Below are positions 40,906 through 64,000 of a DNA stretch of 64,000 bases, in pieces; the stretch's first letter is position 1; every line of letters starts with the position of its first letter. The translations under genes and the position numbers were made by a program. The notes below the pieces were generated by a model. The model searched no databases and was not told the origin of the DNA. It was given only the letters and a program-made list of their open reading frames with translations. The DNA comes from Pseudanabaena frigida (GTDB taxonomy: Bacteria > Cyanobacteriota > Cyanobacteriia > Pseudanabaenales > Pseudanabaenaceae), in assembly GCA_003242085.1 (NCBI GenBank), contig QBML01000018.1, positions 29,725 through 93,724 of the forward strand, read 5' to 3'.

Positions 40906-40963
40906 CTATTGGCTTTTAGCTTTTTCAAAAATCACTTAAAAGAATGCGTAGGATTATAAAAAA

Positions 40964-43772: not shown

Positions 43773-44187
43773 TTTTCTAGTTAATTAAAATCAAATGAAA
43801 CCTTAAACAACATACTAGACATAGTTTGTTATTCTAATCAAACTATAAAAGTTTTAGATAAATAATTAAGTTTTCGCTTAATCATTTTACTCTATTTTTT
43901 CTCTTTTACATTTCATGCATATAGAGGAGGCTAAGATCGCTCTTGATGCATTATGTAAGAACTATCCATCTTTCTTGATATTCAAAGGACTAAGAACGAA
44001 ATCGCATTTTTATATTAATCTTGCACTTCAGAAAGCATTATAATTAAAATGAGTATTGAAACATCTATCCACAATTAGACCTCTTGCATAAAGAGCAATA
44101 CTTTTAGGAGGGGTTTAGAAAGACGATTGAGACGCATCAGATCGTAACTAATGAGATTTATCGCCCTAGCAGTAGGGAAAATGAAAA

Positions 44188-45282: not shown

Positions 45283-45400
45283 GATGTCATTAGAACCACA
45301 AGAGATTTTTTAAAAGTGTTGATTCGCAACACTTTTAAAAAATCTCTTGCTTCGGGTTTAATCATAGATCGCTATGAGATTGCAGATGGAGTTTAAAATC

Positions 45401-45925: not shown

Positions 45926-46317
45926 CGACTTGCCGCTATTCGCGAACAAAAAAGCCTCAATCAACCATTGAGAGCATTTCTCTGAAATGCTCTCAATGGT
46001 TGATTGATTTGATTTAAGCACAAAGTACTGTCTCTCTTTTTTGATTTCGCGATCGCTGAGAAGCATAAAAGTTAGATTCATTGTAAATTTTCCTTTCTCA
46101 TACAATAAAGATTATCTAAAGAATTGATTAGAGAAAGACGATTGCAAACTTAAATAAGTTTACATATTTATAGTCAAACAGTAGTTTATAGAAATTTTAC
46201 AACTTAATGAAGTTCGAGTAATGCCCTCGTCGCAAGTGGGAGACATCACTCCATTAGCTTCATTTGATTGTAAAGCACTGTATACACTATTAGAAATGAG
46301 TGAACTAAGGTGCATGA

Positions 46318-47463
46318 ATGAAGATAGGCGTTATCAAGGAAATAGAATTTGGAGAACGTAGGGTAGCTCTAATTCCTGAAGTGGTAGGTCGTTTGGTCAA
46401 AAATGGTTTAGAAGTTTTGATCGAAAGTCATGCTGGTGAATCATCTTTTTTTGCGAATGATACTTATGAAGAAGTCGGAGCCAAGATTATTACAGATAAA
46501 AGTATTCTGATTAATGAGTCGGACATTTTATTAAAAGTGGGCGCACCTCGCGAAGAAGAGGTAAATATGTTCAAACAAGGGCAAATTACCATCGGATTTC
46601 TCAATCCTCTAGGTAGACCCGAACTGATTCGCCGCCTCGCGCATCAAGGTGTGACAGCGATGAGCATGGAAATGATCCCACGCAGCAGTCGGGCGCAGAG
46701 TATGGACGCACTATCTTCGCAAGCTTCGATCGCTGGTTACAAAGCAGTTCTCATTGCCGCAGCAGCATTACCCAAATATCTCCCGATGCTGACGACAGCA
46801 GCAGGCACAATCCCACCCGCAAAGGTGGTGGTGTTGGGCGCAGGTGTGGCAGGGCTTCAGGCGATCGCTACAGCTCGTCGTCTCGGCGCACAGGTTGAAG
46901 CTTACGATATCCGTCCCGCAGTGCGGGAAGAAGTCCAGAGTCTCGGTGCAAAATTTATTGACGTGTTTTTAGAAGAAGATACTACTGCCACAGGTGGCTA
47001 TGCTAAAGAGATTTCAGAAGCTGCAAAACAACATGCTCAGGAGATCTTAGCTAAGCATATTAAAGAGGCGGATATTGTGATTACCACCGCCCAAGTCCCT
47101 GGACGTAAAGCACCTGTAATGGTCACAGATGCGATGATCGCGCAGATGAAGCGCGGCTCAATCATCGTCGATCTGGCTGGCGAACAGGGCGGTAATTGTG
47201 AAGGAACGGAAGCTGGCAAAGATGTTATTCGTCATGGAGCGACCATTATTTCGCCAATTAATTTACCTTCTTCAATGCCGATTCATGCTTCGCAAAAATA
47301 CGCTAAGAACTTGCTCAATCTTCTCAATCACATGATTAAGAAAGGCGAGCTAAATCTTGATTTTGAAGATGACATTATCAACAGCACTTGTATTACCCAT
47401 GCTGGCGAGATCCGCAATCAGCGCGTAAAAGATGCTCTATCTCAATTAGCAGTTACCGTTTAA
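46318..47463 (+). CDS. pntA: NAD(P) transhydrogenase subunit alpha part 1, intact
   Basis: MKIGVIKEIEFGERRVALIPEVV.. GAGVAGLQAIATARRLGAQVEAYDIR; followed by alpha-2 and beta genes. Confidence 0.95.
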   Translation: MKIGVIKEIEFGERRVALIPEVVGRLVKNGLEVLIESHAGESSFFANDTYEEVGAKIITDKSILINESDILLKVGAPREEEVNMFKQGQITIGFLNPLGRPELIRRLAHQGVTAMSMEMIPRSSRAQSMDALSSQASIAGYKAVLIAAAALPKYLPMLTTAAGTIPPAKVVVLGAGVAGLQAIATARRLGAQVEAYDIRPAVREEVQSLGAKFIDVFLEEDTTATGGYAKEISEAAKQHAQEILAKHIKEADIVITTAQVPGRKAPVMVTDAMIAQMKRGSIIVDLAGEQGGNCEGTEAGKDVIRHGATIISPINLPSSMPIHASQKYAKNLLNLLNHMIKKGELNLDFEDDIINSTCITHAGEIRNQRVKDALSQLAVTV

Positions 47464-47531
47464 TCCAAAAACAGAGGTTAGGGTCGGCACTTCGTACCAA
47501 CCCTAACCTCTATTCCTAATAAAAATCAACT

Positions 47532-47822
47532 ATGAACGAATCATTAATCAGCGCCCTATTTGTGTTTGCCCTTGCATCCTTTACAGGATTTGAAATAATC
47601 AACAAGATTCCACCAACACTGCATACACCTCTAATGTCTGGCTCCAATGCCATTTCAGGAATATCGGTAATCGGAGCTTTGATTGTAGCGGGTAGTGATG
47701 TAAATCCCAATCTCTCCGTAATCCTAGGATTGATATCCGTCGTCTGCGCCACAATCAACGTCGTTGGTGGCTTTCTCGTCACCGATCGCATGTTGCAAAT
47801 GTTTAAAAAGAAAGAGGCATAA
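47532..47822 (+). CDS. NAD(P) transhydrogenase subunit alpha part 2
   Basis: 96 aa membrane segment FTGFEIINKIPPTLHTPLMSGSNAISGI. Confidence 0.93.
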   Translation: MNESLISALFVFALASFTGFEIINKIPPTLHTPLMSGSNAISGISVIGALIVAGSDVNPNLSVILGLISVVCATINVVGGFLVTDRMLQMFKKKEA

Positions 47823-47828
47823 ATCACC

Positions 47829-49241
47829 GTGTTTGAGAATATGTTGGATTATCTGCCTACTGGAATTCAGTTAACTTATTTAGTAGCTGCTTCACTCTTT
47901 ATTGTCGGTCTCAAACAGATGGGATCGCCTGCCACAGCACGTGGTGGTAATTTACTAGGGGCGATCGCGATGCTTCTAGCAGTCATCGCCACGTTGCTCG
48001 ATAAGCAAGTATTAAGCTATGGCTTGATATTGGTAGCGATCGCAATCGGCTCAGCGATCGGTTCGCTAATTGCTTACAGAGTTGCCATGACCGATATGCC
48101 CCAGATGGTGGGCTTATTGAATGGATTAGGAGGTCTAGCTTCCTCTCTAGTTGCCGTAGGTGAATATTGGCGAGTAATTAGTCACGGTCAAACCTTACCC
48201 CTCGTCGATAATCTCTCGATTATGGCAAGCGTCTTGATCGGTAATATAACTTTTACGGGCAGTATGATTGCCTTCGCCAAACTCCAAGGGATCATGAAAG
48301 GTGCACCGATTCGATTCGCCTATCAGCAAACGATCAATATTCTCCTATTAGCTGCCTTCGCCTTTGGTGCTGCCATGTTGATTGCTAATCCTGCCGATCT
48401 CGCAGGATTCATCGGCATTAATATCATCTCATTATTAGTTGGCGTGTTATTCGTGATCCCCATCGGTGGTGGCGATATGCCTGTCGTCATCTCACTGCTC
48501 AACTCCCTCTCAGGGGTTGCCGCAAGTGCCGCAGGTTTTGTAGTAATGAATAATGTCTTGATCATTTCTGGCGCGTTAGTTGGCGCTTCGGGATTAATTC
48601 TCACCCAGATTATGTGCAAAGCGATGAACCGCACCCTTCCCAACGTGTTGTTTAGCGGTTTTGGCACAACTCCAGTTACAGAGGGTGCGACGAGTGACAG
48701 TACTAACAAAACTGTTAAAACTATCGATCCTGAAGAATGCGCGATGATGTTGGGCTATGCGCGATCGGTGGTGATTGTCCCAGGATATGGCATGGCGGTC
48801 GCTCAAGCGCAACATGCCGTTCGCGAGTTGTCGGATCTACTAGAGCGTAAAGGTGTCGAAGTGAAATTTGCAATCCACCCTGTTGCGGGTCGGATGCCTG
48901 GGCATATGAATGTTCTGCTAGCAGAAGCAAATGTTCCCTATTCGCAACTATACGATATGGACGATATCAATACGCAATTTGAGAATACTGATGTGGTATT
49001 GATTATCGGCGCTAATGATGTAGTCAACCCTGCGGCACGAACAAATCAAGCCAGCCCCATTTATGGAATGCCGATTCTCGAAGTAGATAGAGCCAAAAAT
49101 GCGATCGTGATCAAGCGTGGTATGAGTGCAGGCTTTGCGGGAGTCGAAAACGAACTGTTCTATCAACAAAAAACAATGATGCTATTTGGTGGTGCTAAAG
49201 ACATGGTGGCAAAGCTAGCCAATGAGCTAAAACAAATTTAA
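47829..49241 (+). CDS. pntB: NAD(P) transhydrogenase subunit beta
   Basis: GTG start; VVIVPGYGMAVAQAQHAVREL..GRMPGHMNVLLAEANVPY; C-terminal NADP domain. Confidence 0.95.
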   Translation: MFENMLDYLPTGIQLTYLVAASLFIVGLKQMGSPATARGGNLLGAIAMLLAVIATLLDKQVLSYGLILVAIAIGSAIGSLIAYRVAMTDMPQMVGLLNGLGGLASSLVAVGEYWRVISHGQTLPLVDNLSIMASVLIGNITFTGSMIAFAKLQGIMKGAPIRFAYQQTINILLLAAFAFGAAMLIANPADLAGFIGINIISLLVGVLFVIPIGGGDMPVVISLLNSLSGVAASAAGFVVMNNVLIISGALVGASGLILTQIMCKAMNRTLPNVLFSGFGTTPVTEGATSDSTNKTVKTIDPEECAMMLGYARSVVIVPGYGMAVAQAQHAVRELSDLLERKGVEVKFAIHPVAGRMPGHMNVLLAEANVPYSQLYDMDDINTQFENTDVVLIIGANDVVNPAARTNQASPIYGMPILEVDRAKNAIVIKRGMSAGFAGVENELFYQQKTMMLFGGAKDMVAKLANELKQI

Positions 49242-49259
49242 GAGGATTGAGATTAAACC

Positions 49260-49463
49260 ATGAGTTTACAGCGCATTTCGACAATCTTTCTGGGGGCGAT
49301 CGGCATCGCATTATTGATTTTCGCCATCTGGCTGTTCAACAATGTTCCTTATACAGTTTTTGCGGCACAGATGTTTGGACTCGGTGGCTTGGCAATCATC
49401 GCGATCGCTGTTCTGGTTTATCGATCAACTAGCTTTCTAGAAGTAATTCGCGCTTATGTCTAA
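49260..49463 (+). CDS. Small two-TM protein downstream of pntB
   Basis: 67 aa hydrophobic ORF 18 bp after pntB, same strand. Confidence 0.6.
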   Translation: MSLQRISTIFLGAIGIALLIFAIWLFNNVPYTVFAAQMFGLGGLAIIAIAVLVYRSTSFLEVIRAYV

Positions 49464-49494
49464 GATAGATAAAAGCAAAAGCAATCTACCAACA

Positions 49495-49601
49495 GTATAG
49501 CGGTTTTCATTTTGCCTACGGCAAAATGAAAACTCAAAAACCTTACTGGGATTGATTTTTTGTTTTCAAATGAGTATGCACTCAATCGAAACCCGCTATA
49601 C
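49495..49601 (+). repeat. MITE-like remnant with terminal inverted repeats GTATAGCGG(G)TTT
   Basis: Left end gtatagcggttttcatttt, right end inverted gtatagcgggtttcgattg; internal 14-bp hairpin at 49503..49533. Confidence 0.5.
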
Positions 49602-49671
49602 GTATATCGAGTTTGCTAAGCGATCGACTATGTGTGGATTGTAAGTCTATTATGCTAAAACAAATTTAGTT

Positions 49672-49724
49672 CTTATAAAAAAGAAGAGGGAATCACTAAG
49701 TAATTCCCTCTTCTTTTTTATAAG
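49672..49724. terminator. 22-bp-stem hairpin between pnt region and acsF
   Basis: cttataaaaaagaagagggaat-N9-attccctcttcttttttataag. Confidence 0.8.
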
Positions 49725-49750
49725 TAAACGTCAAGCACTCACTTTTTCTT

Positions 49751-50830
49751 TTAGAGAACTACTCCCTTGGGAGTGGGAATAGAAGGTTGTAAATACATCG
49801 TCAAGAACTGTAAACCATTATTAGCAAGGTAAGGGAGCTTTTGAACTTTTTTCAACCATTCGGGAGAACTAGATTCATCAATCTGCACTAACTTTGCATT
49901 GTTCTCTTCGCACTTCTTCAGGCAAGCCCAGAATTTAGGATTTTCTAAATCCATAATTACAGGGAAAGCTTTCGCCGCATCGCGATTGGTTTCACGCAGA
50001 ACTTCATCGACATACTTTCTAGTATCCATACCAATGGATTCATAGAACTCATTACGGACACAGATATCATTTAGATACATGGTAGCAAACACCGATAGTA
50101 AGAAGAACTTACTCCAGAGATTGGCTCTAATACCCTTGATATTATTTTGCTCACTGCGGAGAAGTAAGCTACAGAAATCACCATGACGGCTCTCATCTTG
50201 ACACCAATTTTCAAAGAAATTGAAGATTGGATAGATGCGATATTCTGGGTGAGACAAGAAATGCTGATGGATTTTGATGTAGCGCCAGTAACCAATCTTT
50301 TCCGATAGATAAGTGGCGTAAAAAATAAACTTCGGTGCGAAGTAAACATACTTCTTGGTTTTCGATAATGTCGAAAGGTCAAGTTGCAGATCGAAGTCTG
50401 GCATCGCCTTATTCAGAAAACCAGCGTGACGAGCTTCATCACGACTCATCAAGCTGAAAATTTCAGCCATCAGAGGATTCTTATCCTTGATTTTGACGGC
50501 AATTTCTTTGTATAGCAAAAATCCTGAAAACTCCGAGGTGCAAGATCCTTCAAGAAACACGCGAAAATGCTCTCTCACCTTAGGATCGATATGATTCCAA
50601 TCTTGATTGAAATCAGCAGTACGAACAAAGTGACGACGGTTATAGTCAAATTTAAATTCTTCGAGGATCGCTTCATAATCTGGTGTTAGATCGAAGATAT
50701 CCATATTTGCCATCGCTTCAAAGTCAGTGGTGTAGAAGCGTGGAGTTAGGATCGATTCGCGTCGGCCAGTCCCGTTAACCTTTTGTTGGTTTGACTGGCT
50801 TACATCGGGTTTAGAAGGGGTAGCTACCAT
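49751..50830 (-). CDS. acsF: Mg-protoporphyrin IX monomethyl ester oxidative cyclase (aerobic)
   Basis: RRESILTPRFYTTDFEAMANMD..EGSCTSEFSGFLLYKE..SRDEARHAGFLNKAM..QDESRHGDFC di-iron motifs. Confidence 0.96.
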   Translation of the reverse strand: MVATPSKPDVSQSNQQKVNGTGRRESILTPRFYTTDFEAMANMDIFDLTPDYEAILEEFKFDYNRRHFVRTADFNQDWNHIDPKVREHFRVFLEGSCTSEFSGFLLYKEIAVKIKDKNPLMAEIFSLMSRDEARHAGFLNKAMPDFDLQLDLSTLSKTKKYVYFAPKFIFYATYLSEKIGYWRYIKIHQHFLSHPEYRIYPIFNFFENWCQDESRHGDFCSLLLRSEQNNIKGIRANLWSKFFLLSVFATMYLNDICVRNEFYESIGMDTRKYVDEVLRETNRDAAKAFPVIMDLENPKFWACLKKCEENNAKLVQIDESSSPEWLKKVQKLPYLANNGLQFLTMYLQPSIPTPKGVVL

Positions 50831-50978
50831 AGTTCGTGCTGTTTTCTTTTATGCTGCTAGAAGATTTTGTTAATAAATTGCAGTTTATATACCTATATGA
50901 CTGCCTATTTTACGACTACTGTCTAGTTTATGGGTAGTTATATCTAGAAATAAGGTTTGCTTGTTAAGAAGCGTTAAG

Positions 50979-52676
50979 CTATTTATTGGCGATCGCCGCA
51001 TCAATTTGCTCGATACTAAGAGTCCGCAACAAGCTCACCTGTGCCGCAGGGGTAGATATATTCGCAAAATATTCAGAAGTGAGATAATCTGTATACGTAG
51101 CTTCTTGGACTAGATGCTTTTTGAAGAAGGCAACACTCAGCAACTTCAAATAATCTTGCGAGGCGATCGCATTTGGTCCAGCTAAAACACTGCTTATTTC
51201 AGGACTCAGGCGATCGTCTGATGTAATTGCCGTAACCGCCGTATGTCCCGCTCTATTCAGTAGTACCAAATAGCGACTTGGAGCAGTTAACCAAGTAAAA
51301 GGTACGATTTGCTCGGAGACCACAGGAGCAAACGTATCATCAGAACTGCCAACGATCGCGATCGGTACAGTGATTTTGCTAAACGCTGCCTTCCCTAAGA
51401 CATGGCTTGTCACTGGATTAACCGCAATTACCGCAGTAATGCGCGAATCTCCCAATTTATAGGCTTGGTTGGGTAGTCCTAGCGCCACACATTGCAATAA
51501 CAGTGAAGCATTCCATTTATATTTACCTTGGCAAACTTCTCCAAGATCGGCAAACTGGATCTGAGCGTCGCTGACTAAAGCCAAAGCCGCATACCCACCA
51601 AAAGAGTGACCAATCATGCCCACACTCTTCCAATTGATGTTATTAGCCTGAGGTGACTTTTCTAAATAATTCAGAACCGCAGTTATATCTTGAGGACGCT
51701 CAATAAAGCTCTCTGGTGGTGCAATCTCACTGGCAGCACCAATAATTAATTTATCTAATTGCTCTGCACTACTATTAGGTGAAACCGTCAGCACAACTGC
51801 AAAGCCATAGGATGCTAGATGTTCAGCAAGATAGAGTAGTGGCTCGCGGTTAGAAATTAGACCAGGATAGATAACGATCGCAGGAAGAGGTTTGAGATTA
51901 GCGTTGATAAGTTTGGGGACAAACAGATAAAACGGAATTTCATATTTACTATTTAGCGCTGGTGCTTTGAGGCTATATCGCTCCCACTTCATGTTCCCTG
52001 CTTCACGTAAGTCCGCCAACTGTAAAGGAGTCGGTAAAGTCGATGTTACTGGCGGGTTTGAAGGTATCGCTTGCTTTATTGCCTCGTTATTGACCATTTG
52101 CACGACTCTTTGAGTGTTCTGGAGCAAATCACTCAATTCTCCTACTGTTTGCAAACCCTCTTGAATATCAAAATAAATATCTGAGGTAGGGAATTTACGT
52201 AAGAAATTTAATAAAGATAAACCGTTCTGTTTATCAACTGTTGCCAAAACTGCCGCAGCGCGAATTGCTCGATTTCCTGATAGGTTAGGGCCAGTCCTGA
52301 TAAATTCGCCTAAGATATCCAATGCTCTTTCGCCCTGAGAAGTATAAAGAAATCTAGATAACAGAGATACAGGCACATCAGCTCTCTCTGACAAAATTCG
52401 CCGAAACGTCGCCATATCTGGCGCAGAAATATAACGAGATGCCATATCAAGAGCACCACGTAACTCTCCAGTTTTAGCAAAAACCTCCAAGTCATCAACA
52501 GATACTGAAACCTCAAAAACATTAAATCTAAAATTTACCGTTTCGGCTGCTTCACTAGACTTAACGCTCGTCCCTCCACTAATTGCCCCGATCGCACTAA
52601 GCAAAATCATTAACGTAGCAGATCGGATAACCAATCGCGAGCAAATACCGGCGATCGCATCTGTTAGATATTTCAT
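50979..52676 (-). CDS. Alpha/beta hydrolase with N-terminal DUF1400-like domain
   Basis: Signal peptide; VGMIGHSFGGYAAL nucleophile elbow; LLNRAGHTAV. Confidence 0.85.
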   Translation of the reverse strand: MKYLTDAIAGICSRLVIRSATLMILLSAIGAISGGTSVKSSEAAETVNFRFNVFEVSVSVDDLEVFAKTGELRGALDMASRYISAPDMATFRRILSERADVPVSLLSRFLYTSQGERALDILGEFIRTGPNLSGNRAIRAAAVLATVDKQNGLSLLNFLRKFPTSDIYFDIQEGLQTVGELSDLLQNTQRVVQMVNNEAIKQAIPSNPPVTSTLPTPLQLADLREAGNMKWERYSLKAPALNSKYEIPFYLFVPKLINANLKPLPAIVIYPGLISNREPLLYLAEHLASYGFAVVLTVSPNSSAEQLDKLIIGAASEIAPPESFIERPQDITAVLNYLEKSPQANNINWKSVGMIGHSFGGYAALALVSDAQIQFADLGEVCQGKYKWNASLLLQCVALGLPNQAYKLGDSRITAVIAVNPVTSHVLGKAAFSKITVPIAIVGSSDDTFAPVVSEQIVPFTWLTAPSRYLVLLNRAGHTAVTAITSDDRLSPEISSVLAGPNAIASQDYLKLLSVAFFKKHLVQEATYTDYLTSEYFANISTPAAQVSLLRTLSIEQIDAAIANK

Positions 52677-52941
52677 AATTTAGCTTTCTTTGTTTTAGCT
52701 TTTTGTGAAGGCTTTTCTAAAAGCTAACACGAAATTTATCTTTGATAGGTTTAAGAAGAGTTCTCTTCATAAACCCAGAAATAAGAAGTAACGCATCAAC
52801 TTTCTTGATTTTTGGCTGACGCTCGCGATATACAAAACAATACAAATGTTAATATTCATCAATTTTGCCCCAACCGCTAGGGTGCAATGCTAACATCCAA
52901 AATAGTTAAAAGATGATTAAACAAAGCTTTAGGAGCGCATT

Positions 52942-54162
52942 TTGACATTACGAGTTGCTGTTGTAGGCGGCGGACCTGCGGGTTCCTGTGCGGCTGAAAC
53001 ACTTGCCAAAGCAGGAATTGAGACCTACATATTCGAGCGTAAGCTAGACAACGCCAAACCCTGCGGTGGAGCAATTCCTCTATGTATGGTTTCAGAATTT
53101 GAGTTGCCTGACGAAATTATCGATCGCCGCGTCCGCAACATGAAAATGATCTCTCCCAGCAATGTGGAAGTAGATATCAAACTAGACAATCCCGATGAAT
53201 ATATCGGCATGTGTCGTCGTGAAGTTTTAGATGCTTTTTTACGCAATCGTGCGGCTGACCTTGGAGCAAAGCTAATCAATGGTCGCATTCTCGATATTAA
53301 GATTACTGAAAATGGCAAGCAGCCTTATGTGCTGACCTACTCAGATTTTGCTGAAGGTGGCAATGAAGGTGTTATGCGTACCCTCGAAGTCGATCTGATT
53401 GTCGGTGCTGATGGCGCTAACTCGGTAGTAGCCAAAGCGATCGATGCTGGTGACTATAACTATGCGATCGCCTTCCAAGAGCGCATTCGTATTTCACCAG
53501 ACAAGATGGAATATTACAAAGATTTAGCAGAAATGTACGTTGGCGATGATGTTTCGCCCGATTTCTACGCATGGGTATTCCCTAAATACGATCATGTGGC
53601 AGTTGGTACTGGCACGATGCATAAAAACCAACGCCTGATCAAGAAGCTACAGGCAGGCATTCGCGCTCGCGCTTTGCCCAGAATCGAAGGTGGCGAAGTG
53701 ATTAAGGTCGAAGCCCATCCAATTCCCGAACATCCACGTCCTCGCCGTGTCGTCGGTCGTGTTGCCCTCGTCGGTGATGCGGCTGGCTATGTTACCAAGT
53801 CCAGTGGTGAAGGTATTTATTTTGCTGCTAAGTCTGGTCGGATGTGTGCTGAGGCGATCGTGGAGTTTGCCGAAGCAGGTAAGCGCATTCCTACTGAAGC
53901 CGATCTCAAGGTTTACATCAAGCGTTGGGATAAGCAGTATGGTCTCACTTACAAAGTCCTAGACATTCTCCAGAATGTTTTTTACGCCACAAACGCTACC
54001 CGTGAGGCATTTGTAGAAATGTGCGCCGATAAAGATGTACAAAAGCTCACCTTTGATAGCTATCTCTACAAAACTGTTGTACCAGCCAATCCTTTCACGC
54101 AGCTAAAAATTACCGCTAAAACCATCGGTAGTTTATTGAGAGGCAATGCTCTAGCCCCTTAA
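52942..54162 (+). CDS. chlP: Geranylgeranyl reductase
   Basis: TTG start; LRVAVVGGGPAGSCAAETLAKAGIETYIFERKLDNAKPCGGAIPLCM; ChlP signature. Confidence 0.95.
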   Translation: MTLRVAVVGGGPAGSCAAETLAKAGIETYIFERKLDNAKPCGGAIPLCMVSEFELPDEIIDRRVRNMKMISPSNVEVDIKLDNPDEYIGMCRREVLDAFLRNRAADLGAKLINGRILDIKITENGKQPYVLTYSDFAEGGNEGVMRTLEVDLIVGADGANSVVAKAIDAGDYNYAIAFQERIRISPDKMEYYKDLAEMYVGDDVSPDFYAWVFPKYDHVAVGTGTMHKNQRLIKKLQAGIRARALPRIEGGEVIKVEAHPIPEHPRPRRVVGRVALVGDAAGYVTKSSGEGIYFAAKSGRMCAEAIVEFAEAGKRIPTEADLKVYIKRWDKQYGLTYKVLDILQNVFYATNATREAFVEMCADKDVQKLTFDSYLYKTVVPANPFTQLKITAKTIGSLLRGNALAP

Positions 54163-54204
54163 ATAAAACAAGGAGTGCGTAAACGCACTCCTTGTTTTAT
54201 TTAA
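54159..54204. terminator. chlP 3' hairpin (22-bp stem)
   Basis: ttaaataaaacaaggagtgcgt-aa-acgcactccttgttttatttaa. Confidence 0.8.
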
Positions 54205-54233
54205 AAAAATCATAGCCCTAGGGCTATGATTTT

Positions 54234-54353
54234 TTATTTGCTGCTTTGACCTTCTTCACGGCTAGCTGTTTGAATATACAGAGTTAGCAAGAAAACGGTA
54301 GGTACAAATACTGCTAGAACAGTTGCAAGAAGACCAAGAAAATTAGTTTCCAT
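54234..54353 (-). CDS. psbM: Photosystem II protein M (not in supplied ORF track)
   Basis: Manual translation METNFLGLLATVLAVFVPTVFLLTLYIQTASREEGQSSK*; PTVFLL.LYIQTASRE is the PsbM signature. Confidence 0.93.
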   Translation of the reverse strand: METNFLGLLATVLAVFVPTVFLLTLYIQTASREEGQSSK

Positions 54354-54444
54354 AAATTTGACTTTGATTGCTTATGTTAAATATTTTGATGACTGCTAAT
54401 ATTCTAAGTTCAAAATTGATTACTCTTACGAAAAAATTAAAAAC

Positions 54445-54483
54445 CAAAAAAGAAGGCAGCGCTACACGCTGCCTTCTTTTTTG
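54445..54483. terminator. Hairpin 3' of S1-like gene (17-bp stem)
   Basis: caaaaaagaaggcagcg-ctaca-cgctgccttcttttttg. Confidence 0.8.
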
Positions 54484-54487
54484 AAGA

Positions 54488-55378
54488 TTAAGCTTCCCAG
54501 AGTTTACTGATATTTTTTTCTAGACGCTCCTCTGCTTCAGCAAATACCTGTGCTGAATTATCGAGAATCTCACCAGCATGAAGTTCGAGCAGTTTTGTGG
54601 AGAGAGCAATACGATTGCGCGACTCGTCGATATCCACAACAACAGCCTTGATTACATCATTGAGCTGAAACACCCGCGTAGGATCGCTAACAGGCTTTTG
54701 GCTCATTTCTTTGACATGGAGTAAGCCTGAAACTCCTGCAAATTCTACAAATGCGCCAAAGGGGCGAATATTAGTAATCTTGCCAGTGATCAGTTGTCCT
54801 TTAGCAAGTTGATTCATCGCCGCAAGTTTGGCGGCTTGACGGTTAGACAGAACTAACTTCTTGCGAGTTTCATCAGCATCTAAAACCATTACAGGAATAG
54901 TTTTGCCGATCAACTTGGCAAGATCGGTTGTGTCTGACAAGTGCGATCGCGGTACAAAGCCACGCAATCCTACAGAGTCAACAATTACACCGCCACTGTT
55001 TGTACCGATTACCTTAGTTTCAAATACCTTGGATTCAGCTTGATAATCCCGTAGTGTTTGCCAAGCTTGCTTGAATAGCAAGCGGCGTACTGAAAGCTTC
55101 ACTTCACCATCAGCATTCTGGCTGCTAATGATCAGAAATTCGTACTCATTGCCAATTGGGAAGGCATCATTAGAGCGCGAGGAGCCACTGAGAGTAGCTT
55201 CTTCAATTGGGAGAAAACCTAAAGATTTAGCGCCAATATCGACATAAATGCCACTACTTTCGACTGAAATTACCTTGCCCTTCACGGTTTGCCCCACAGC
55301 AAACTCGTAATTATGCTCGGCGAGGGCATTGGCAAAATCGTCGGCAGAAAATGACTGAATATTTGTTGTGGCGTTCAT
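54488..55378 (-). CDS. S1-domain RNA-binding protein (cyanobacterial Rps1-like)
   Basis: Repeated S1 motifs: GQTVKGKVISVESSGIYVDIGAKSLGFLP; GQLITGKITNIRPFGAFVEFAGVSGLLHVKEMS. Confidence 0.9.
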   Translation of the reverse strand: MNATTNIQSFSADDFANALAEHNYEFAVGQTVKGKVISVESSGIYVDIGAKSLGFLPIEEATLSGSSRSNDAFPIGNEYEFLIISSQNADGEVKLSVRRLLFKQAWQTLRDYQAESKVFETKVIGTNSGGVIVDSVGLRGFVPRSHLSDTTDLAKLIGKTIPVMVLDADETRKKLVLSNRQAAKLAAMNQLAKGQLITGKITNIRPFGAFVEFAGVSGLLHVKEMSQKPVSDPTRVFQLNDVIKAVVVDIDESRNRIALSTKLLELHAGEILDNSAQVFAEAEERLEKNISKLWEA

Positions 55379-55545
55379 GGATAGAGATAAATATGCTAAA
55401 GATGCGAAGCGTTACTTGCGTGTATTTTATTGTAATTGTCTCACAGCGATTATAGAGAATATGAAGTAAATCTATCTTTCTCGATAATCGCTACGCTTCT
55501 TAATACAAAAAAACAAAATTATTGAGGCGAGCTTCTCACGCTTCA

Positions 55546-55941
55546 TTAATTTTGGGCTTTATGCGAATCACCAATCAGATAAATCACAAATAGTAAAACC
55601 ATTACAGAATCGATCGCGATCGCAATGCCTGCTTGATGACCGAGATACTGCCGACCGTATATAAGCACTAAAGCAATAAAAGTAAGCTTGCTAATACTAG
55701 AGACAGTCAAAATCAAGGGACGACTTACAGACTTGAACGCACCGTAGATTTGCATTGCGCCAACAAGTGTAATTAAAGCGCCCCAGTTACGCACAATAAT
55801 TTCTGCAAGTTGACCATCCAAAGACACACCAAATGTAGAACGTAAGGCTTCCTGTGGAGCGATCGCTGCATAAAATAAGGTGCAAGTCAGTGCACCAGAC
55901 ACGAGCATAATCCACTTTATTTGGGCAACAATCCACTTCAT
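55546..55941 (-). CDS. Small membrane protein of unknown function
   Basis: 131 aa with 4 predicted TM segments. Confidence 0.65.
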   Translation of the reverse strand: MKWIVAQIKWIMLVSGALTCTLFYAAIAPQEALRSTFGVSLDGQLAEIIVRNWGALITLVGAMQIYGAFKSVSRPLILTVSSISKLTFIALVLIYGRQYLGHQAGIAIAIDSVMVLLFVIYLIGDSHKAQN

Positions 55942-56005
55942 CGGTTTTCCTAATCTGAATATTCGCCTAAATTAGACAACTCTTTATGGTCGATAAAACT
56001 ATAGC

Positions 56006-56052
56006 TAGTTAAGAAAAAGTGCGGTGCGACGCACCGCACTTTTTCTTAACTA
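56006..56052. terminator. 22-bp-stem hairpin
   Basis: tagttaagaaaaagtgcggtgc-gac-gcaccgcactttttcttaacta. Confidence 0.75.
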
Positions 56053-56077
56053 CAGCTTGTTTAGGCTTTATGCAGTA

Positions 56078-56128
56078 CAAGAAATTTTTTAAAAGTGTTG
56101 CTTCGCAACACTTTTAAAAAATTTCTTG
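56078..56128. repeat. Palindrome family A member (24-bp stem)
   Basis: caagaaattttttaaaagtgttgc-ttc-gcaacacttttaaaaaatttcttg, followed by ggttttgagaaagcgcaaagcaccgta. Confidence 0.85.
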
Positions 56129-56166
56129 GGTTTTGAGAAAGCGCAAAGCACCGTAACGGCTTAATT

Positions 56167-56283
56167 CTATAGCAATAACAGAGATAGCTAGGCAAAATCA
56201 AAACCCAAATAAATAGAGGCGGCGCTTCGCGCCGCCTCTATTTATTTGGGTTTTATGTCCTAAGCAAAACTTGCATTGCTATA
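56167..56283 (-). repeat. Palindrome family B member (MITE-like, about 117 bp, 26-bp central stem)
   Basis: Ends ctatagcaat../..attgctata; centre aaaacccaaataaatagaggcggcgc-ttc-gcgccgcctctatttatttgggtttt. Confidence 0.8.
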
Positions 56284-56415
56284 TATCAAATTGATGAGCT
56301 TGCTTATCAATTTGATACTCTTCAGGCAGGTGCGAAAGCGAATGCACTAGACTAGTAGATAATTAATAAAGTCAAGCGATTACCGCATCGACGGGGTTAT
56401 AAGGAGCTACAGGCA

Positions 56416-58311
56416 GTGATGTCTTCTCAAGAAAAAATCTTTCGGCAAATCTTTCGGACAAACTTGTGGCGGCGCGTCAAAACGACGGTCATAAGTTTAG
56501 CAATATTGCAGAGTGTGGCGCTGACAGTGCCAACCTCTGCTCGTGCTGACGGAGAAAATGCATCGACTATCGGATATACCGAACTACTTTCGAGCGTAAA
56601 AGATAATAAAGTCCAAAAAATCGACCTTGAAAGCAACGGTTTAGCAGCAGAAGCAGTTTTGAAAGATGGTCGAAAAGTCAGGATCGATCTAATCGCCCGT
56701 GATGGCAATACCGAGTTGATGAAGGCATTACGTGAAAACAATGTCGATATAGCGGTAAGAGCACCTCAGCAACCAACATTAATTTGGCAACTCGCTAGTA
56801 CATTTTTTGTACCCTTGCTGTTGATTTTTGTACTGTTGATGGTGTTACGTCGCCTCAGCAATGCCCCAGGTGGCCCTGGACAAACTCTCAGTTTTGGCAA
56901 AACAAAGGCAAGATTTTCGCCTGAAGCCAAGACAGGTATCATGTTTGAGGATGTTGCAGGAATTGATACCGCCAAAGAAGAATTACAGGAAGTTGTCACA
57001 TTTCTCAAACAGCCCGATCGCTTTACAGCAGTTGGCGCAAAAATCCCCAAGGGCGTATTGCTGATTGGTCCTCCAGGAACTGGTAAGACACTCTTGGCTA
57101 AGGCGATCGCAGGAGAGGCAGGGGTTCCTTTCTTCTCGTTGTCGGGTTCTGAGTTTGTGGAAATGTTTGTTGGGGTTGGCGCTTCTCGTGTACGTGACCT
57201 ATTCCAAAAAGCCAAAGAAAATGCGCCCTGTATCATCTTCATTGATGAAATTGATGCAGTCGGGCGGCAGCGAGGAACTGGTATCGGGGGAGGCAACGAT
57301 GAGCGCGAGCAAACCCTTAACCAAATGCTAACGGAAATGGATGGGTTTCAGGGAAATACGGGTGTAATCGTGGTAGCAGCTACCAATCGTCCAGATGTTC
57401 TTGATAGTGCTTTGCTACGTCCAGGTAGATTTGATCGCCAGATTACAGTAGACTTGCCTGACTTCAAAGGTCGTCAAGAAATTCTCAAAGTCCATGCCCG
57501 CAATAAAAAGCTAGATGAGAATGTCTCCATAGAGGCAATCGCCCGCCGCACTCCTGGATTTGCTGGAGCAGATTTGGCTAACTTACTAAATGAAGCTGCA
57601 ATTTTAACCGCCAGACGTTATAAAGAGGCGATCGGTGAATTAGAAATTTCTGATGCGATTGATCGGGTCAAGATTGGCATGACTCTGAAACCTTTATTGA
57701 ATAGCGCGGAAAAAACCAAAACGGCTTATCACGAAATCGGACATGCTTTGCTCACAACCTTGCTAAAAAACACTGACCCGTTGGATAAAGTTACAATTAT
57801 CCCTCGCTCTGGCGGGACTCTCGGCTTTTCATTGTCTCTTCCATCTGAAGAAATGGGGCTTGAGACTCGTTCCACGCTTCTAGACATGATTACTGTAGCT
57901 TTGGGTGGCAGAGCCGCCGAAGAAGTAGTCTTTGGCATTGCAGAAATTGATGTTGGTGCTAGCAGCGACTTGCAAAAAGTGGCTAAAATTGCGCGCACGA
58001 TGGTTACTAAATTAGGGATGTCTAGCTTAGGTTTGGCAGCCTTTGAGGGACAGCAACAAAATGAATTTAGTTGGATGCAAAAGAACGAGTATTCCGAAGA
58101 AATTGCGAGTAAAATTGACCAACAAGTCCGAAATATCGCTAAAACATGCTATGACCAAGCGAAGCAGATTATTTTGGAAAATCGTGATCTTTGTGATCGA
58201 CTAGTCGATATTCTTCTGGAATCGGAAACCTTAGATGGTGAAGAATTTCGTAAGATTGTTTCCCAATACACGCAATTGCCTGAGAAACAAACTGCTTCAT
58301 TAAAATTTTAA
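56416..58311 (+). CDS. ftsH: ATP-dependent zinc metalloprotease FtsH
   Basis: [57 protein letters not shown] zinc motif. Confidence 0.97.
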
Positions 58312-58336
58312 CTAGCATAAATAACTAATTAGCCAT

Positions 58337-58379
58337 AAAAATAGATAAGGATGTGCAAAGCACATCCTTATCTATTTTT
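58337..58379. terminator. 20-bp-stem hairpin between ftsH and pheA
   Basis: aaaaatagataaggatgtgc-aaa-gcacatccttatctattttt. Confidence 0.85.
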
Positions 58380-58388
58380 GGACTTAAT

Positions 58389-59225
58389 ATGACAACGATC
58401 GCTTATCTTGGTCCCGCAGGTACATACTCAGAAATGGCTGCCCTGCAATATTTGCAGTTAAATTATCCAGACTTAACACGAGATATTCCCACACTGCGCC
58501 CTTACCAAACTATTCCTCAAGCAATTAACGCCGCTGAGCATGGTCATGTTGATATTGCGGTTGTGCCTGTAGAAAACTCGATCCAAGGCGGTGTAACCAT
58601 GACCCTCGATAGCCTTTGGCAATCCGAGTCTTTGCAGATCCAACAGGCGATCGTCCTACCGATCGCCCATGCCTTGATTACTCGCGCCCCAAATCTTGAG
58701 GATATTAAAGCTGTCTATTCGCATCCCCAAAGTTTAGCCCAGTGCCAACAATGGCTCGATCGCTATCTACCAAACGTTCAACAGATTGCCACTGACTCCA
58801 ATACCGATCGGTTACATAGTGTTGCTGAAGATGCGACAGTAGCGGCGATCGCTTCACAACATGCCGCTGAGCTATACAAATTACCAGTTCTAAAATTTCC
58901 CATTAACGATCAACCAGATAATTGCACTCGTTTTTTGGTCTTAGGTCGCACTACGCCCACGACAAAAGGCACGCATTCATCACTCGCCTTTAGCCTCAAG
59001 CGCAATATGCCAGGCGCATTAGTAAAACCTTTGTTAGTATTTGCCGATCGCCAGATCAATTTGAGCCGTATCGAGTCACGCCCCACTAAGCGATCGCTTG
59101 GTGAATATATTTTCTTCCTCGACATTGATGCGGCGATCGAAGACCCTAACTTCAGCGAAGCCTTAGTCGAACTGCAAAACGTTACTGAAAACCTCAAAAT
59201 CCTTGGTAGTTATTCCATCGCTTAA
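58389..59225 (+). CDS. pheA: Prephenate dehydratase
   Basis: MTTIAYLGPAGTYSEMAAL..VPVENSIQGGV..; ESRPTKRSLGEYIFFLDI. Start re-assigned from 58353, which lies in the hairpin. Confidence 0.93.
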   Translation: MTTIAYLGPAGTYSEMAALQYLQLNYPDLTRDIPTLRPYQTIPQAINAAEHGHVDIAVVPVENSIQGGVTMTLDSLWQSESLQIQQAIVLPIAHALITRAPNLEDIKAVYSHPQSLAQCQQWLDRYLPNVQQIATDSNTDRLHSVAEDATVAAIASQHAAELYKLPVLKFPINDQPDNCTRFLVLGRTTPTTKGTHSSLAFSLKRNMPGALVKPLLVFADRQINLSRIESRPTKRSLGEYIFFLDIDAAIEDPNFSEALVELQNVTENLKILGSYSIA

Positions 59226-59258
59226 CGAGATAGTAAAAGCTGCTAAGCCCCGCTCTTA

Positions 59259-60020
59259 CTATATTTTTGAATGAGCAAGACGTTTATTCCGCATCAGCAC
59301 GTTAGCACCTTCATTAGTTTGCTCAATTACTAATAGCGGTGTTGGTTTAGCAGTTTGATCCCAACTAATTACTGCTAGCCTTCCTTGAATCGTAGGTTGC
59401 CAATTACGGTTTTCATCTGAGGCAACAACAAAACTTTCTAGCCCTGCCGCCAAATCTTTGAGAATACTTTGCGAACCATGAGCAGGAATCTTCGCTAATT
59501 TGACATGGATACGAAAAAGCACGCGGATTTGTGAATCGTCGTGGTGTTCTGGTTGAAAAGCTACATCAAAAATCACATCTACTTTTCGCGCATTACCACT
59601 ATCTTCCTCACTTGGCATCAAAGCAGGCGCAACTTTTTGACGAAGATTAACCTTCATCTGCGCCAAGATAATTTCACAAAAATGAGGCTCCTCCATTCTC
59701 ATACTCAGATAATCCAGATTAAACTCACGGGAATGAATCAGATCGGGGTTACGCTCGTTTTCATCAATAGTATGCAATGCAAGTTTTAGCTTTTTGGCAA
59801 GCTCCTGATTTTTGATTTTTTCGACCTTAAGTTGTTGTCGATTTTTTCGCAATTGCCAGTAATGATAGGCAGTCGCGCCAAGTGCGCCCCACAGTAAGAC
59901 CAGCAATAAGCTCACACAAACCGTGTTTTGCAGTGGCATGGTTGACTGCTCGATTGAGCCTAACAAACCTTCGCGATCGCTAGGTTTTACAGTCATTAGA
60001 ACTCTTGATGCGTACAACAT
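59259..60020 (-). CDS. Hypothetical protein with one TM segment
   Basis: 253 aa ORF, TM plus coiled-coil-like stretch. Confidence 0.65.
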   Translation of the reverse strand: MLYASRVLMTVKPSDREGLLGSIEQSTMPLQNTVCVSLLLVLLWGALGATAYHYWQLRKNRQQLKVEKIKNQELAKKLKLALHTIDENERNPDLIHSREFNLDYLSMRMEEPHFCEIILAQMKVNLRQKVAPALMPSEEDSGNARKVDVIFDVAFQPEHHDDSQIRVLFRIHVKLAKIPAHGSQSILKDLAAGLESFVVASDENRNWQPTIQGRLAVISWDQTAKPTPLLVIEQTNEGANVLMRNKRLAHSKI

Positions 60021-60191
60021 AAAAATGCACCAATTTTAAATAGAAATTCGGTAAGCTTCCCCTACTTATGACGATTCGCGTAAGTCATAAGTGGCAATTA
60101 TCAATAAAATCTTTCTGATTCCCCCCTCAGACTATTCCCCAAATGCTGCAAATAATGAGCACATTACAGCAATTACCGATCGATCGAACCA

Positions 60192-60242
60192 CAAGAAGAA
60201 TCTTAAAAGCGTTGCTTCACAACGCTTTTAAGATTCTTCTTG
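60192..60242. repeat. Palindrome family A member (23-bp stem)
   Basis: caagaagaatcttaaaagcgttg-cttca-caacgcttttaagattcttcttg, followed by gtttgggtttaagcgcaaagcgctgta. Confidence 0.85.
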
Positions 60243-60369
60243 GTTTGGGTTTAAGCGCAAAGCGCTGTATACAACTAACCCAAAAAGTAAAAGCGGCAAT
60301 AAATGCCGCTTTTACTTTCTATATCTTGCCAAATAAAGCTAAGCTTCACTTAGCGGGGCTTTTGATAAC

Positions 60370-60576
60370 TTAGTCGATAGAAATTGATTGAGGCCCATCA
60401 TTTTTGCTATTGCTGCTAGTAGTAGAAGCAGCATTCACAGTTGCTCCCTGTTTTTCAAGCCACCCCTTTAAAGGATCTTGTTGGAGATCTAGTTTGAGAA
60501 ACCCCGAAACGAGACCACCAAAAAATGCAACGGGTTGCCCTAAGAACTCATTGAGAATCGGTTTTAGCTCGTCCAT
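60370..60576 (-). CDS. Small conserved-looking hypothetical protein
   Basis: 68 aa MDELKPILNEFLGQPVAFFGGLVSGFLKLDLQQDPLKGWLEKQG. Confidence 0.6.
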   Translation of the reverse strand: MDELKPILNEFLGQPVAFFGGLVSGFLKLDLQQDPLKGWLEKQGATVNAASTTSSNSKNDGPQSISID

Positions 60577-60734
60577 AAATGCAGAAATGTAGTTTGGGTT
60601 AGATAACAGACAAAGATTTAGATGGCGCTGCCGATAAAGGTAGTACCTATCGCAATTGTACCTTCTTTTTTAGAGACCCGTCATTTAAAGCTGTAGCAAA
60701 CCAGTAGTTCTCATTATGAATCAGCAACGTAGAC

Positions 60735-60790
60735 GCTGACACTATAAATGAAAGCCAGTCGTAGGGCTGGCTTTCATTTATAGTGTCAGC
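60735..60790. terminator. 24-bp-stem hairpin 3' of kinase gene
   Basis: gctgacactataaatgaaagccag-N8-ctggctttcatttatagtgtcagc. Confidence 0.8.
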
Positions 60791-60795
60791 CATCT

Positions 60796-62580
60796 TTAAT
60801 TCACTTTTGTAAGACTAGCAATTTTCCATTTACCTTCTTCAAAACGGAGCGTACACACATACTTACCTCGCGATGGCTGGGACTGCGTACTATCAATCTT
60901 GCCATTGACATAAAGCGTTGGGCTTTCAAAAATTTCTACTGTTACATTCGCTTGATTATCTTGAATACCAAAAGAGCCTGCCCGACTAACAGTAAATTCA
61001 CCATAGCGATAAAAAGCATTATTGCTTTGCAACCAGTCAATCGAGCCCTTACGTTTTTCTAAAGCTTCACCTGTAGTTAATTCAGCTAATAATTGACGGT
61101 CGAATGGTGGGGCAAACATTTGATTTTTACTAGCCACTAAGTTATTGACGATCGCCACAGCATCTGACTCAGACAAGGGTTCAATTCCTGTTTTCGTTGA
61201 TGTAGTCGATGTTTTTGTGGGTGTGGGGCGATCGCTAGCTGAATGACTCGCAGAAGGGGATGGGCTAGAAGAAGGGGTAGCCACAACTGATATTGATGGA
61301 CTAGCCACAGATATCGCATCAGGATTTGCGGTAGTAGGGCTAGGCTTACTGGTTTGGTTAGCTTGACTAGTAGCCATTTTTGGCTCATTTACCACACTAG
61401 GATTTCGAGTTGCCATAACCGCACCGATCGCGATCGCGGTTACAAATGCTCCACCCCAAACAGCAACCCATAGACCTTTTTTATCGCTACTACCACTATT
61501 ACTCTGACTAGGGGCATAAATCTGCACGGTAGGCGGAGCTGGATTCGCATAAGCAGGATCGCGACCGCCAGAATTAGCACCAACCTGTGGGGCAGAAGTT
61601 GATGCGGGTTGTGCTAAAGGCTGTGTTGGCAATAATACAGGTGGTGTAGGTACGACTTTTGGAGAAACTTCAGTAATTAAGTTATTACCTTTATTTATAC
61701 CCACAATCGTTGACTGAAGACCGTTTGCAGTCTGACTTGCTTGTTGACTTGGTAACTGGTTCGAGCCTAAGGCTGCTAAAGCTTGACGCACTTCTGATGA
61801 GGTTTCATAGCGATCTTTGTAGTGATAGCGGGTCATCTTAGCCAAGATATCGATTAATCCCGACTTAGTAGACACAAGGTGCTGCCAAATTAATTCCCCC
61901 GTTTGATAGTCTTCCTGTAGTTCGCGAGGCGGCAAACCTGTCAAAGCCTGAATACCGATTACCCCGATCGCATATAGATCGCTATTTGTTCGTGGCTTTC
62001 CTTGAGCTTGTTCGCTGGGCATATAACCCAAAGTACCGATCGCCACTGTCGCAATAGTCTGCCCCTCTTGATTTATTTGATTTTGTACCTGCTTGATTGC
62101 CCCAAAATCGATCAGCACCAACTTGTCATCAGACTTACGCCGAATAATATTATCTGGCTTGATATCACGATGAATTACGCCATGACTATGCGTATATTCC
62201 AAAATATTTAATAAATCATCTAATATCTGGATTACTTGAATGTCCTTCAGCCGATAACCACGTACTAACTCTAGTTCTAGCGATCGCCCTTCAATAAACT
62301 CTTCCACCAGATAAAATTCTCCTTGCTGCTCAAAATAGGCTAGTAAGCGCGGAATGCGATCGTGATTGCCCAACTGAGCAAGAGTTTGCGCCTCACTCGT
62401 AAACAAACGACTAGCAACTTTTAAATATTGGAGGTCATTACTAGCTGGTTTGAGATGCTTGACTACACAGAGGGGCTCATTGGGAATGCGAGTATCATGA
62501 GCGAGATAAGTATGTCCAAATCCGCCCTCACCCAATTTGCTAGCAATGCGGTAGCGCCCATCAAGTAATTGACTAATCAT
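60796..62580 (-). CDS. Serine/threonine protein kinase with C-terminal ARC6/IMS-like domain
   Basis: LDGRYRIASKLGEGGFGHTYLAHD; GVIHRDIKPDNII; C-terminal ARC6-like IMS (DUF4101) pattern. Confidence 0.92.
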   Translation of the reverse strand: MISQLLDGRYRIASKLGEGGFGHTYLAHDTRIPNEPLCVVKHLKPASNDLQYLKVASRLFTSEAQTLAQLGNHDRIPRLLAYFEQQGEFYLVEEFIEGRSLELELVRGYRLKDIQVIQILDDLLNILEYTHSHGVIHRDIKPDNIIRRKSDDKLVLIDFGAIKQVQNQINQEGQTIATVAIGTLGYMPSEQAQGKPRTNSDLYAIGVIGIQALTGLPPRELQEDYQTGELIWQHLVSTKSGLIDILAKMTRYHYKDRYETSSEVRQALAALGSNQLPSQQASQTANGLQSTIVGINKGNNLITEVSPKVVPTPPVLLPTQPLAQPASTSAPQVGANSGGRDPAYANPAPPTVQIYAPSQSNSGSSDKKGLWVAVWGGAFVTAIAIGAVMATRNPSVVNEPKMATSQANQTSKPSPTTANPDAISVASPSISVVATPSSSPSPSASHSASDRPTPTKTSTTSTKTGIEPLSESDAVAIVNNLVASKNQMFAPPFDRQLLAELTTGEALEKRKGSIDWLQSNNAFYRYGEFTVSRAGSFGIQDNQANVTVEIFESPTLYVNGKIDSTQSQPSRGKYVCTLRFEEGKWKIASLTKVN

Positions 62581-62613
62581 GCTTGCCTACTCCATCTCTG
62601 CAATAAATATAGC

Positions 62614-62666
62614 AAAACCCAGAGATTCGAGACGGCACTTCCTGCTATCTCGAATCTCTGGGTTTT
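62614..62666. repeat. 19-bp-arm palindrome, truncated family B-like flanks
   Basis: aaaacccagagattcgaga..tctcgaatctctgggtttt, preceded by tatagc and followed by gtcctaag. Confidence 0.6.
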
Positions 62667-62847
62667 AATTCGTCCTAAGTATTATAATGACACCTTGGTT
62701 TATGATGGTTAAGCTGTAATGCCTATAACTAACTTAAAGCGCTAACGTCAGAAAATGACATAGCCTAGAATAGACATATAGCTTTTAGAAACGGTTTGTA
62801 GAAAAGGACTAGTAAACTGCTAGCCGAACCAGTTGTTTTGATGATTT

Positions 62848-63198
62848 ATGGCTAGATACACTCAACATTTCTTAGTTGAAATCGCTCCCGAAGACCTGCA
62901 TTCAACGATTATCAAAACGTTGGAAGCTTGCAGCTTAGTAATTACCTATGAAACCGACGACTATGTGATTGCTCAAGAAATCGAGACGAATGCTTCATTC
63001 GCCAAAATGGTAACTGTAGAAGTTCTAATCCATCGCTCTGAGATAGAAGGTAATCAAGCAAAATTGACTAGTGTTACTAAAAATTCTGAACTACCTCTTC
63101 GTATTAACAATCACTGTCAAGGGATCTCCAATCGCGTTTCTAAAGCATTTAGTGACAGCTCAGCATGGAAACTCTTAGAAGTTACCGCAGGATATTAA
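62848..63198 (+). CDS. Hypothetical protein, conserved-looking
   Basis: 116 aa ORF directly upstream of smpB. Confidence 0.65.
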   Translation: MARYTQHFLVEIAPEDLHSTIIKTLEACSLVITYETDDYVIAQEIETNASFAKMVTVEVLIHRSEIEGNQAKLTSVTKNSELPLRINNHCQGISNRVSKAFSDSSAWKLLEVTAGY

Positions 63199-63229
63199 AA
63201 AGTACTTAGACAGTACTCAATGGGAATAA

Positions 63230-63688
63230 ATGGGCAATTATCGTCGTGTACTCGCCGAAAATCGGCAAGCTAGATTTAATTACGAAATCCTCGAAACTCA
63301 TGAAGCAGGAATCGAGTTGCTTGGTACTGAAGTTAAATCAATTAAAGGAGGAAAAGCAAATCTACGCGATGCCTATGGCATTGTGCGGAAGGGGCAGATC
63401 ATGCTGCTGAATATGTATATTGCCCCCCACCATACAACTAGTGTGTATTTTAATCATGAGCCAACCCGCACTCGCCGCTTGCTGCTGCATAAGGACGAAA
63501 TTCGTAAATTGATCGTGGCTGTACAACAAAAGGGTTTGACTTTAATACCACTTAAGGTTTATCAGAAGGATGGATGGATTAAGGTCGATCTAGCGTTAGT
63601 GCGACAGAAGAAGCTACATGATAAGCGTGATGACATGAAAAAACGCGATGATAAACGTGAAATCGAACGTGCTATGAAAACCCATTAG
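63230..63688 (+). CDS. smpB: SsrA-binding protein
   Basis: RRVLAENRQARFNYEILETHEAGIELLGTEVKSIKGGKANLRDAYG. Confidence 0.96.
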   Translation: MGNYRRVLAENRQARFNYEILETHEAGIELLGTEVKSIKGGKANLRDAYGIVRKGQIMLLNMYIAPHHTTSVYFNHEPTRTRRLLLHKDEIRKLIVAVQQKGLTLIPLKVYQKDGWIKVDLALVRQKKLHDKRDDMKKRDDKREIERAMKTH

Positions 63689-63704
63689 CTTCTGCATCGC
63701 TCAG

Positions 63705-63812
63705 CTATAGCAATACAAGTTTTGCTTAGGACATAAAACCCAAAACATAGGGGCGGTGCTATGCACCGCCCCTATGTTTTGATTTGTCCTAGCTATCTCT
63801 TTCATTGCCATA
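63705..63812 (+). repeat. Palindrome family B member (MITE-like)
   Basis: ctatagcaatacaagttttgcttaggacataaaaccc..caaaacataggggcggtgc-tat-gcaccgcccctatgttttg..atttgtcctagctatctctttcattgcc. Confidence 0.8.
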
Positions 63813-63852
63813 ACACAAAGTGAAACTACTGCTGGTTGAACAGCGCTGAAGC

Positions 63853-64000
63853 CTAATGCATTGCCATCATTTCCAATTCATAAAGGCTGGCATACAAACC
63901 TTGTTTAGCGATTAACTGGTCGTGACTGCCAGATTCAATCACTTCGCCTTGCTTAAGTACAAGAATGCGATCGACATTGCGAATGGTTGAGAGTCGGTGA
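63853..64000 (-). CDS. ABC transporter (ATPase C-terminus), truncated by window end
   Basis: Manual translation [48 protein letters not shown]. Confidence 0.93.

Follow-up and report, generated by a model that had tools for sequence, protein, structure and literature searches.

The type II MITEs of the IS630 family (PMC10969869) are non-coding elements of less than 500 bp that share terminal inverted repeats with an autonomous IS and insert at TA. They are mostly intergenic, reach high copy numbers and include many degenerate copies, and in all these respects they resemble the palindromic repeats described here, termed family B. A separate body of work concerns the evolution of hairpins, in which homogenisation of the arms together with inversion of the spacer, with short spacers being preferred, is regarded as the signature of intermolecular template-switching at the replication fork (PMC8604942; PMC8794818). 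Ten spacer inversions in coding sequence were reported in the yeast study (PMC8604942), and small inversions are known from 11 sites among 20 plastomes (PMC6824564). Family B was encountered in a stretch of 64,000 nucleotides from a Pseudanabaena genome, henceforth the window. The comparisons presented below make it likely, in our judgement, that it is best explained overall as an IS630-type MITE whose hairpin core is rewritten by replication template-switching.

Family B in the window and in the genus

A reading of the window from its sequence alone (the sequence-only reading) had proposed a family of elements with shared ends around a central hairpin. Both features are borne out in the two full copies (Table 1), which fold far better than shuffled sequences (z-scores of -11.7 for the first and -9.9 for the second). 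The accompanying statement that the central hairpins always pair is valid for these two copies, but is not strictly true, as the older copy pairs imperfectly in its stem and has degenerated at its right outer end. The counterpart of this older copy, previously listed alongside it, is not an independent copy; it lies in the second repeat unit of an exact tandem duplication (period 23,493 bp). This duplication occupies positions 1..46987 of the window with zero mismatches, and represents either a very recent event or an assembly artefact. The two remaining relatives, which had been described as diverged members, still possess the AAACCC..GGGTTT hairpin, with a right side resembling TTTGTCCT or TTCGTCCT, but lack proper outer ends, and are degenerate or chimaeric.

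Table 1. Family-B copies and their parts in the window
Feature	Position	Strand	Remarks
Full copy TATAGCAAT...ATTGCTATA, predicted IS630-derived MITE	56168..56283	-	116 bp, full-length; left end at right-hand side
Central perfect hairpin AAAACCCAAATAAATAGAGGCGGCGC-TTC-GCGCCGCCTCTATTTATTTGGGTTTT	56200..56254	.	26-bp arms, TTC loop
Left terminal inverted repeat TATAGCAATGCAAGTTTTGCTTAGGAC	56257..56283	-	Matches IS left ends TATAGCAAAAAAAGGGAGAGATAGGACATAA (L248) and TATAGTAACGTAAGGGTAAGATAGGACATAA (L288)
Right terminal inverted repeat, consensus TATAGCAATGAAAGAGATAGCTAGGACAAAT	56168..56197	-	Family consensus equals L269 IS right end at 27/30 first bases
Second full copy, different stem ACATAGGGGCGGTGC	63706..63812	+	TAT loop; previously quoted ends present
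Perfect hairpin of second full copy	63741..63781		19-bp arms, TAT loop
Older copy, imperfect stem	11240..11330	+	Right outer end degenerate; fold z -2.1
Exact duplicate of older copy	34733..34823	+	Within 23,493-bp tandem duplication
Degenerate or chimaeric relative	458..560	+	AAACCC..GGGTTT hairpin, 5-nt loop, TTTGTCCT on right; outer ends unrecognisable
Degenerate relative	62608..62690	+	Most of left end missing; TATAGC joined straight to AAAACCC

The copies share a common plan, namely TATAGCAAT-GCAAGTTTTGCTTAGGAC-ATAAAACCC, the palindrome with a loop of usually 3 nt, and GGGTTTTGA-TTTGTCCTAGCTATC-TCTTTCATTGCTATA, with a full length of 116 bp. The recurrence of these flanks elsewhere in the genome, on which the sequence-only reading had made the family depend, is evident: in the host genome (5.39 Mb) the right-end motif has 122 matches and the left-end motif 91, compared with 26 and 0 respectively for the reversed controls. 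Extraction yielded 155 distinct two-ended copies, 113 of them with identical spacing; 80 two-ended copies came from the host genome, as counted before removal of identical copies, and many more copies have just one recognisable end. Several copies lie at or near the ends of host contigs (L005, L016, L077, L081, L101, L104, L119 and L121), suggesting that the true copy number may be higher. The centres of only 2 of 79 host copies fall within an ORF of at least 100 aa, compared with 253 of 311 points chosen at random from the same stretches. Family B is thus small, non-coding and present in high copy number, as a MITE is.

The end motifs occur in 24 of the 26 genomes counted as belonging to the same genus as the host, and in none of 32 other genomes. 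Named records containing an exactly matching stretch belong to Pseudanabaena, to a strain filed as Phormidium tenue and to one cyanobacterial MAG. In the literature searched, family B appears to be undescribed, though it is a known kind of element, and nothing was found on Pseudanabaena palindromes or very small mobile repeats.

Relationship to IS630, target site and mobility

IS630-type transposases are found throughout the genus Pseudanabaena. One such insertion sequence (L248/L267), an autonomous element, spans 954 bp, with its HTH_Tnp_IS630 and DDE_3 portions split over two frames. Both ends of the MITE are matched by this IS and by its relatives in other congeners (L269, L292, L268 and L288), a match that includes GGACATAA at the left end and GGACAAAT at the right. 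The IS left ends have TAGGACATAA in common with the left end of the MITE, and 27 of 30 positions of the L269 IS right end (TATAGCAAAGAAAGAGATAGTTAGGATAAAT) are identical to the right-end consensus of the MITE. Moreover, the asymmetry between left and right ends is the same in the MITE and in the related IS of congeners, with near-identical termini. The terminal inverted repeats of family B are hence homologous to those of autonomous IS630 elements with DDE_3. The search for a helper transposase suggested by the sequence-only reading was successful to the extent that such partners are present in congeners, but no intact helper IS was found in the host genome: its two IS630 genes are either bounded by different termini or show just 30–39% similarity. 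This suggests that the mobility of family B in the host genome is probably past.

The flanks of 84 copies yield a symmetrical target consensus, WTM-TA-KAW, and the target-site duplication sought in them proved to be TA only, with nothing longer. As intergenic regions turn over too much to provide a clean empty site between strains, insertions within genes were used instead, the evidence of insertion being restored reading frames. Excision in silico of the copy in L076 of the host, leaving one TA, restores an Acyl_transf_3 ORF, and the same operation on the copy in L175 of strain SR411 restores an xisI ORF; in both cases the respective Pfam domain (XisI in the latter) spans the joint. The shared IS630 ends, the TA target and the two restored genes, taken together, indicate that family B is, on sequence grounds, a type II MITE that originated from a Pseudanabaena insertion sequence of the IS630 family (Tc1/mariner superfamily). 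The earlier designation "MITE-like" thereby gains a related autonomous partner, a TA target and two gene insertions whose frames are restored on removal. The shared termini, target and gene insertions also point to mobilisation of the MITE in trans by the IS transposase: the DDE_3 enzyme would have acted on the TATAGCAA..TAGGACA ends and inserted the MITE at TA sites, after which its ends would have decayed independently of each other.

Two further IS630-related elements were observed. In L237 the right end of a family-B copy encloses an IS630 with ends TATAGTAAATTCAAATAA.. (1420..2347), the gene of which is interrupted by a run of N. The window contains a second MITE-like element at 49498..49600 (TATAGCGGTTTTCATTTTGCC-TAC-...CCCGCTATA), and its ends correspond to those of another IS630 (L247).

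Stem subfamilies and concerted change of the arms

The stems of family B sort into subfamilies (typified by AAATAAATAGAGGCG, AAAAGATGAGTGGCG, AAAAAGCGAGTTGCG and others), which tend to go with particular end variants. The sequence-only reading had called the stem hypervariable; within a subfamily, it is in fact less variable per base than the flanks, and differs mainly between subfamilies. In the main host subfamily (37 copies), pairs in the outer ends show 30% one-sided changes, with two-sided changes in 12 cells against 10.8 expected by independence. In the AT-rich stem, one-sided changes amount to 0.7% and matched two-sided changes to 3.4%, the latter in 14 cells against about 1.1 expected, and the GC core is intermediate (8.8% one-sided, 5.1% two-sided). 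The 29 paired changes in these copies fall into 18 kinds, 7 of the changes being transversions, and individual copies depart from the stem of their subfamily through matched changes on both arms. A second subfamily displays the same contrast between ends and stem, with counts inflated by shared ancestry.

The same pattern is seen between orthologs, of which two pairs came up by chance. The copies at the same site in UWO311 (L185) and M085S1 (L235) have different loops and, in the stem, two matched-pair differences, of which one is a transversion. Those in the genomes G025 (L138) and G023 (L139) differ within the element by just one matched pair, and the hairpin adjoining this element has a flipped 1-nt loop. 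Thus, both arms change in concert beyond chance, as expected of evolution by template-switching. The loops, read relative to the fixed ends, are evenly divided between the two orientations, with GAA in 44 and TTC in 42 copies (p=0.91), and TTT in 14 and AAA in 10 (p=0.54).

An exchangeable, copy-specific stem had been suggested previously, and this would make the hairpin a module that moves or recombines on its own and passes from one set of conserved ends to another. Hairpins with AAACCC..GGGTTT edges are indeed found between different outer ends (TACTCCCTTCCCA.. in L204/L186, and a different-ended element in L309) or with one family-B end only. Against this, stem types go with end variants, which argues against a freely exchanged cassette; variants are set apart by single matched pairs, and orthologous copies have altered the stem in place through matched substitutions. 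The concerted evolution of the arms explains the variation of the stem without any exchange, and we consider a cassette improbable. Other palindromic repeats with AAACCC..GGGTTT edges or similar cores and different outer ends (e.g. TACTCCCTTCCCA..) were noted in L204, L186, L024 and L309, and it is possible that the core was shared anciently between families. A 160-bp stretch among such other-ended repeats is present in G025 and absent from G023.

Matched changes could also be compensatory mutations fixed by selection on an RNA structure, the hairpin serving as a terminator or mRNA stabiliser. The almost exclusively intergenic position of the copies and the great stability of the hairpins would fit such a role. 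However, stem mismatches show no RNA-strand bias (29 G-T versus 22 A-C, p=0.40, a test that use of both strands would weaken), the 7 transversions among the 29 paired changes lack a G-U intermediate, and exact inversion of the loop is not predicted by such selection. These observations render it less likely, and we regard it as very improbable; a comparison with Rfam also gave no family match at the gathering threshold in the whole window. Replication template-switching would account for both arms and loop: the replication machinery would switch template between the hairpin arms, probably intermolecularly and at the fork, and thereby rewrite the core repeatedly. Copying of one arm onto the other would either convert single mutations into matched pairs or erase them, and the same switch would invert the short loop. 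Other hairpins of these genomes would undergo the same process, which would not be particular to the MITE.

Loop inversion in the genus and comparison with known systems

G025 and G023 are closely related congeners, for which 216 kb could be aligned with 0.92% substitutions; G025 is a metagenome assembly, and its L138 is identical to L205 (M53BS1SP1A06MG). The aligned sequence holds 103 hairpins; gap-free alignment was obtained for 100 of them, and in 99 the loop was of a kind in which inversion would be visible. In 30 of these 99 the loop of one genome is the exact reverse complement of that of the other, with 4 other loop changes. Flips affected 9 of 18 loops of 1 nt, 20 of 53 of 3 nt, and 1 of 28 of all other sizes (1 of 27 among longer loops). 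Loop inversion and concerted arm change are thus natural variation between orthologs and between copies, and inversion, the other feature expected of template-switching, is found both in the family-B copies and in the hairpins of these two genomes. Arm changes are commoner in flipped than in unflipped hairpins (10/30 versus 9/69, p=0.026), which lends modest support to template-switching. Several flips coincide with an arm difference where the hairpin of one genome is perfect, and in one case the inverted interior contained a mismatched pair. Hairpins sharing the stem of the element at 49498..49600 are loop-flipped at four places in this comparison.

Clean paired arm changes between the two genomes number just two, and one-sided changes persist at 0.61% per base, only a little under the genome average of 0.92%, which counts against template-switching. 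This indicates that correction of the arms is slower than flipping of the loops, and the two could have different causes. Treating flips as reversible, we calculate about 0.47 flips for each hairpin in the time taken for 0.0092 substitutions per site, about 50 times the per-site rate. Together with the MITE copies, this suggests that loop inversion per hairpin can outpace point substitution per site tens of times over, and flips could be polymorphic within a population.

The very high frequency of flips and their strong dependence on short loops might also be expected of a dedicated inversion system, either a site-specific recombinase or extrusion of a cruciform followed by the action of a nuclease and a ligase. 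The flipped hairpins, however, have nothing in common in sequence beyond being inverted repeats, and flips go with arm changes, including correction-like ones, so that a dedicated system seems a poor prospect. A more general proposal is that hairpin rewriting is unusually active in Pseudanabaena through changes in replication or in the handling of cruciforms, or through some dedicated factor, such that the 1–3-nt loops of many intergenic hairpins flip almost freely, maybe being polymorphic within a culture, while arm mutations are copied across or erased; we rate this as unlikely. Replication template-switching is the most likely cause of both kinds of change, though inversion by way of a cruciform is conceivable.

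A control comparison of Escherichia coli K-12 with REL606 provided just 4 comparable hairpins in 195 kb, too few for a baseline rate; relaxed criteria gave 34 hairpins of unmatched arm length, with one flagged flip in a divergent stretch that was judged spurious. Loop inversion at such a density in a bacterial genome was not found in the literature, a weak negative as subscription journals lay mostly outside the scope of the search. Within the window, positions 23494..64000 (40.5 kb) contain 22 perfect hairpins with arms of at least 12 bp, against 0 in each of 3 shuffles; among these is a CAAGA..TCTTG family at 45299, 56078 and 60192.

The MITE itself is ordinary, and the rate of flipping is the interesting part. 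Freely decaying ends around a non-decaying hairpin, in many copies, constitute a natural experiment on the maintenance of perfect DNA palindromes, and a testable system for template-switching in bacterial replication. The observations also matter for the use of compensatory changes as evidence of RNA function, and for SNP-based phylogeny near hairpins.

REP elements (PMC3733652) are, like family B, repeated intergenic palindromes, but are shorter and bear a GTAG or CGTC tag at one end; the ends of family B are of the IS630 type, and its target is TA. The family-B consensus was rejected as a REP element, as it has AAAACCC/GGGTTTT at the foot of the hairpin and no such tag. Unlike the described IS630-family MITEs (PMC10969869), family B has as its core a long, near-perfect hairpin of subfamily-specific sequence, and its ends are imperfect and asymmetric, as in its IS. 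Evolution of hairpins by template-switching is already known from yeast (PMC8604942) and RNA genes (PMC8794818), and the mutations described there and in quasipalindromes of E. coli (PMC7202029) show the same homogenisation of arms, matched double changes, spacer inversion and preference for short spacers. Pseudanabaena differs in that the hairpins of a bacterial genus are involved, with 30 of 99 flipped in 216 kb between two genomes at 0.92% divergence. The hairpin loops of plastids (PMC6824564) likewise flip back and forth, homoplastically and mostly in intergenic regions; in Pseudanabaena, dozens of flips separate two bacterial genomes, partly inside transposon-derived repeats, and the phenomenon is genome-wide and very frequent.
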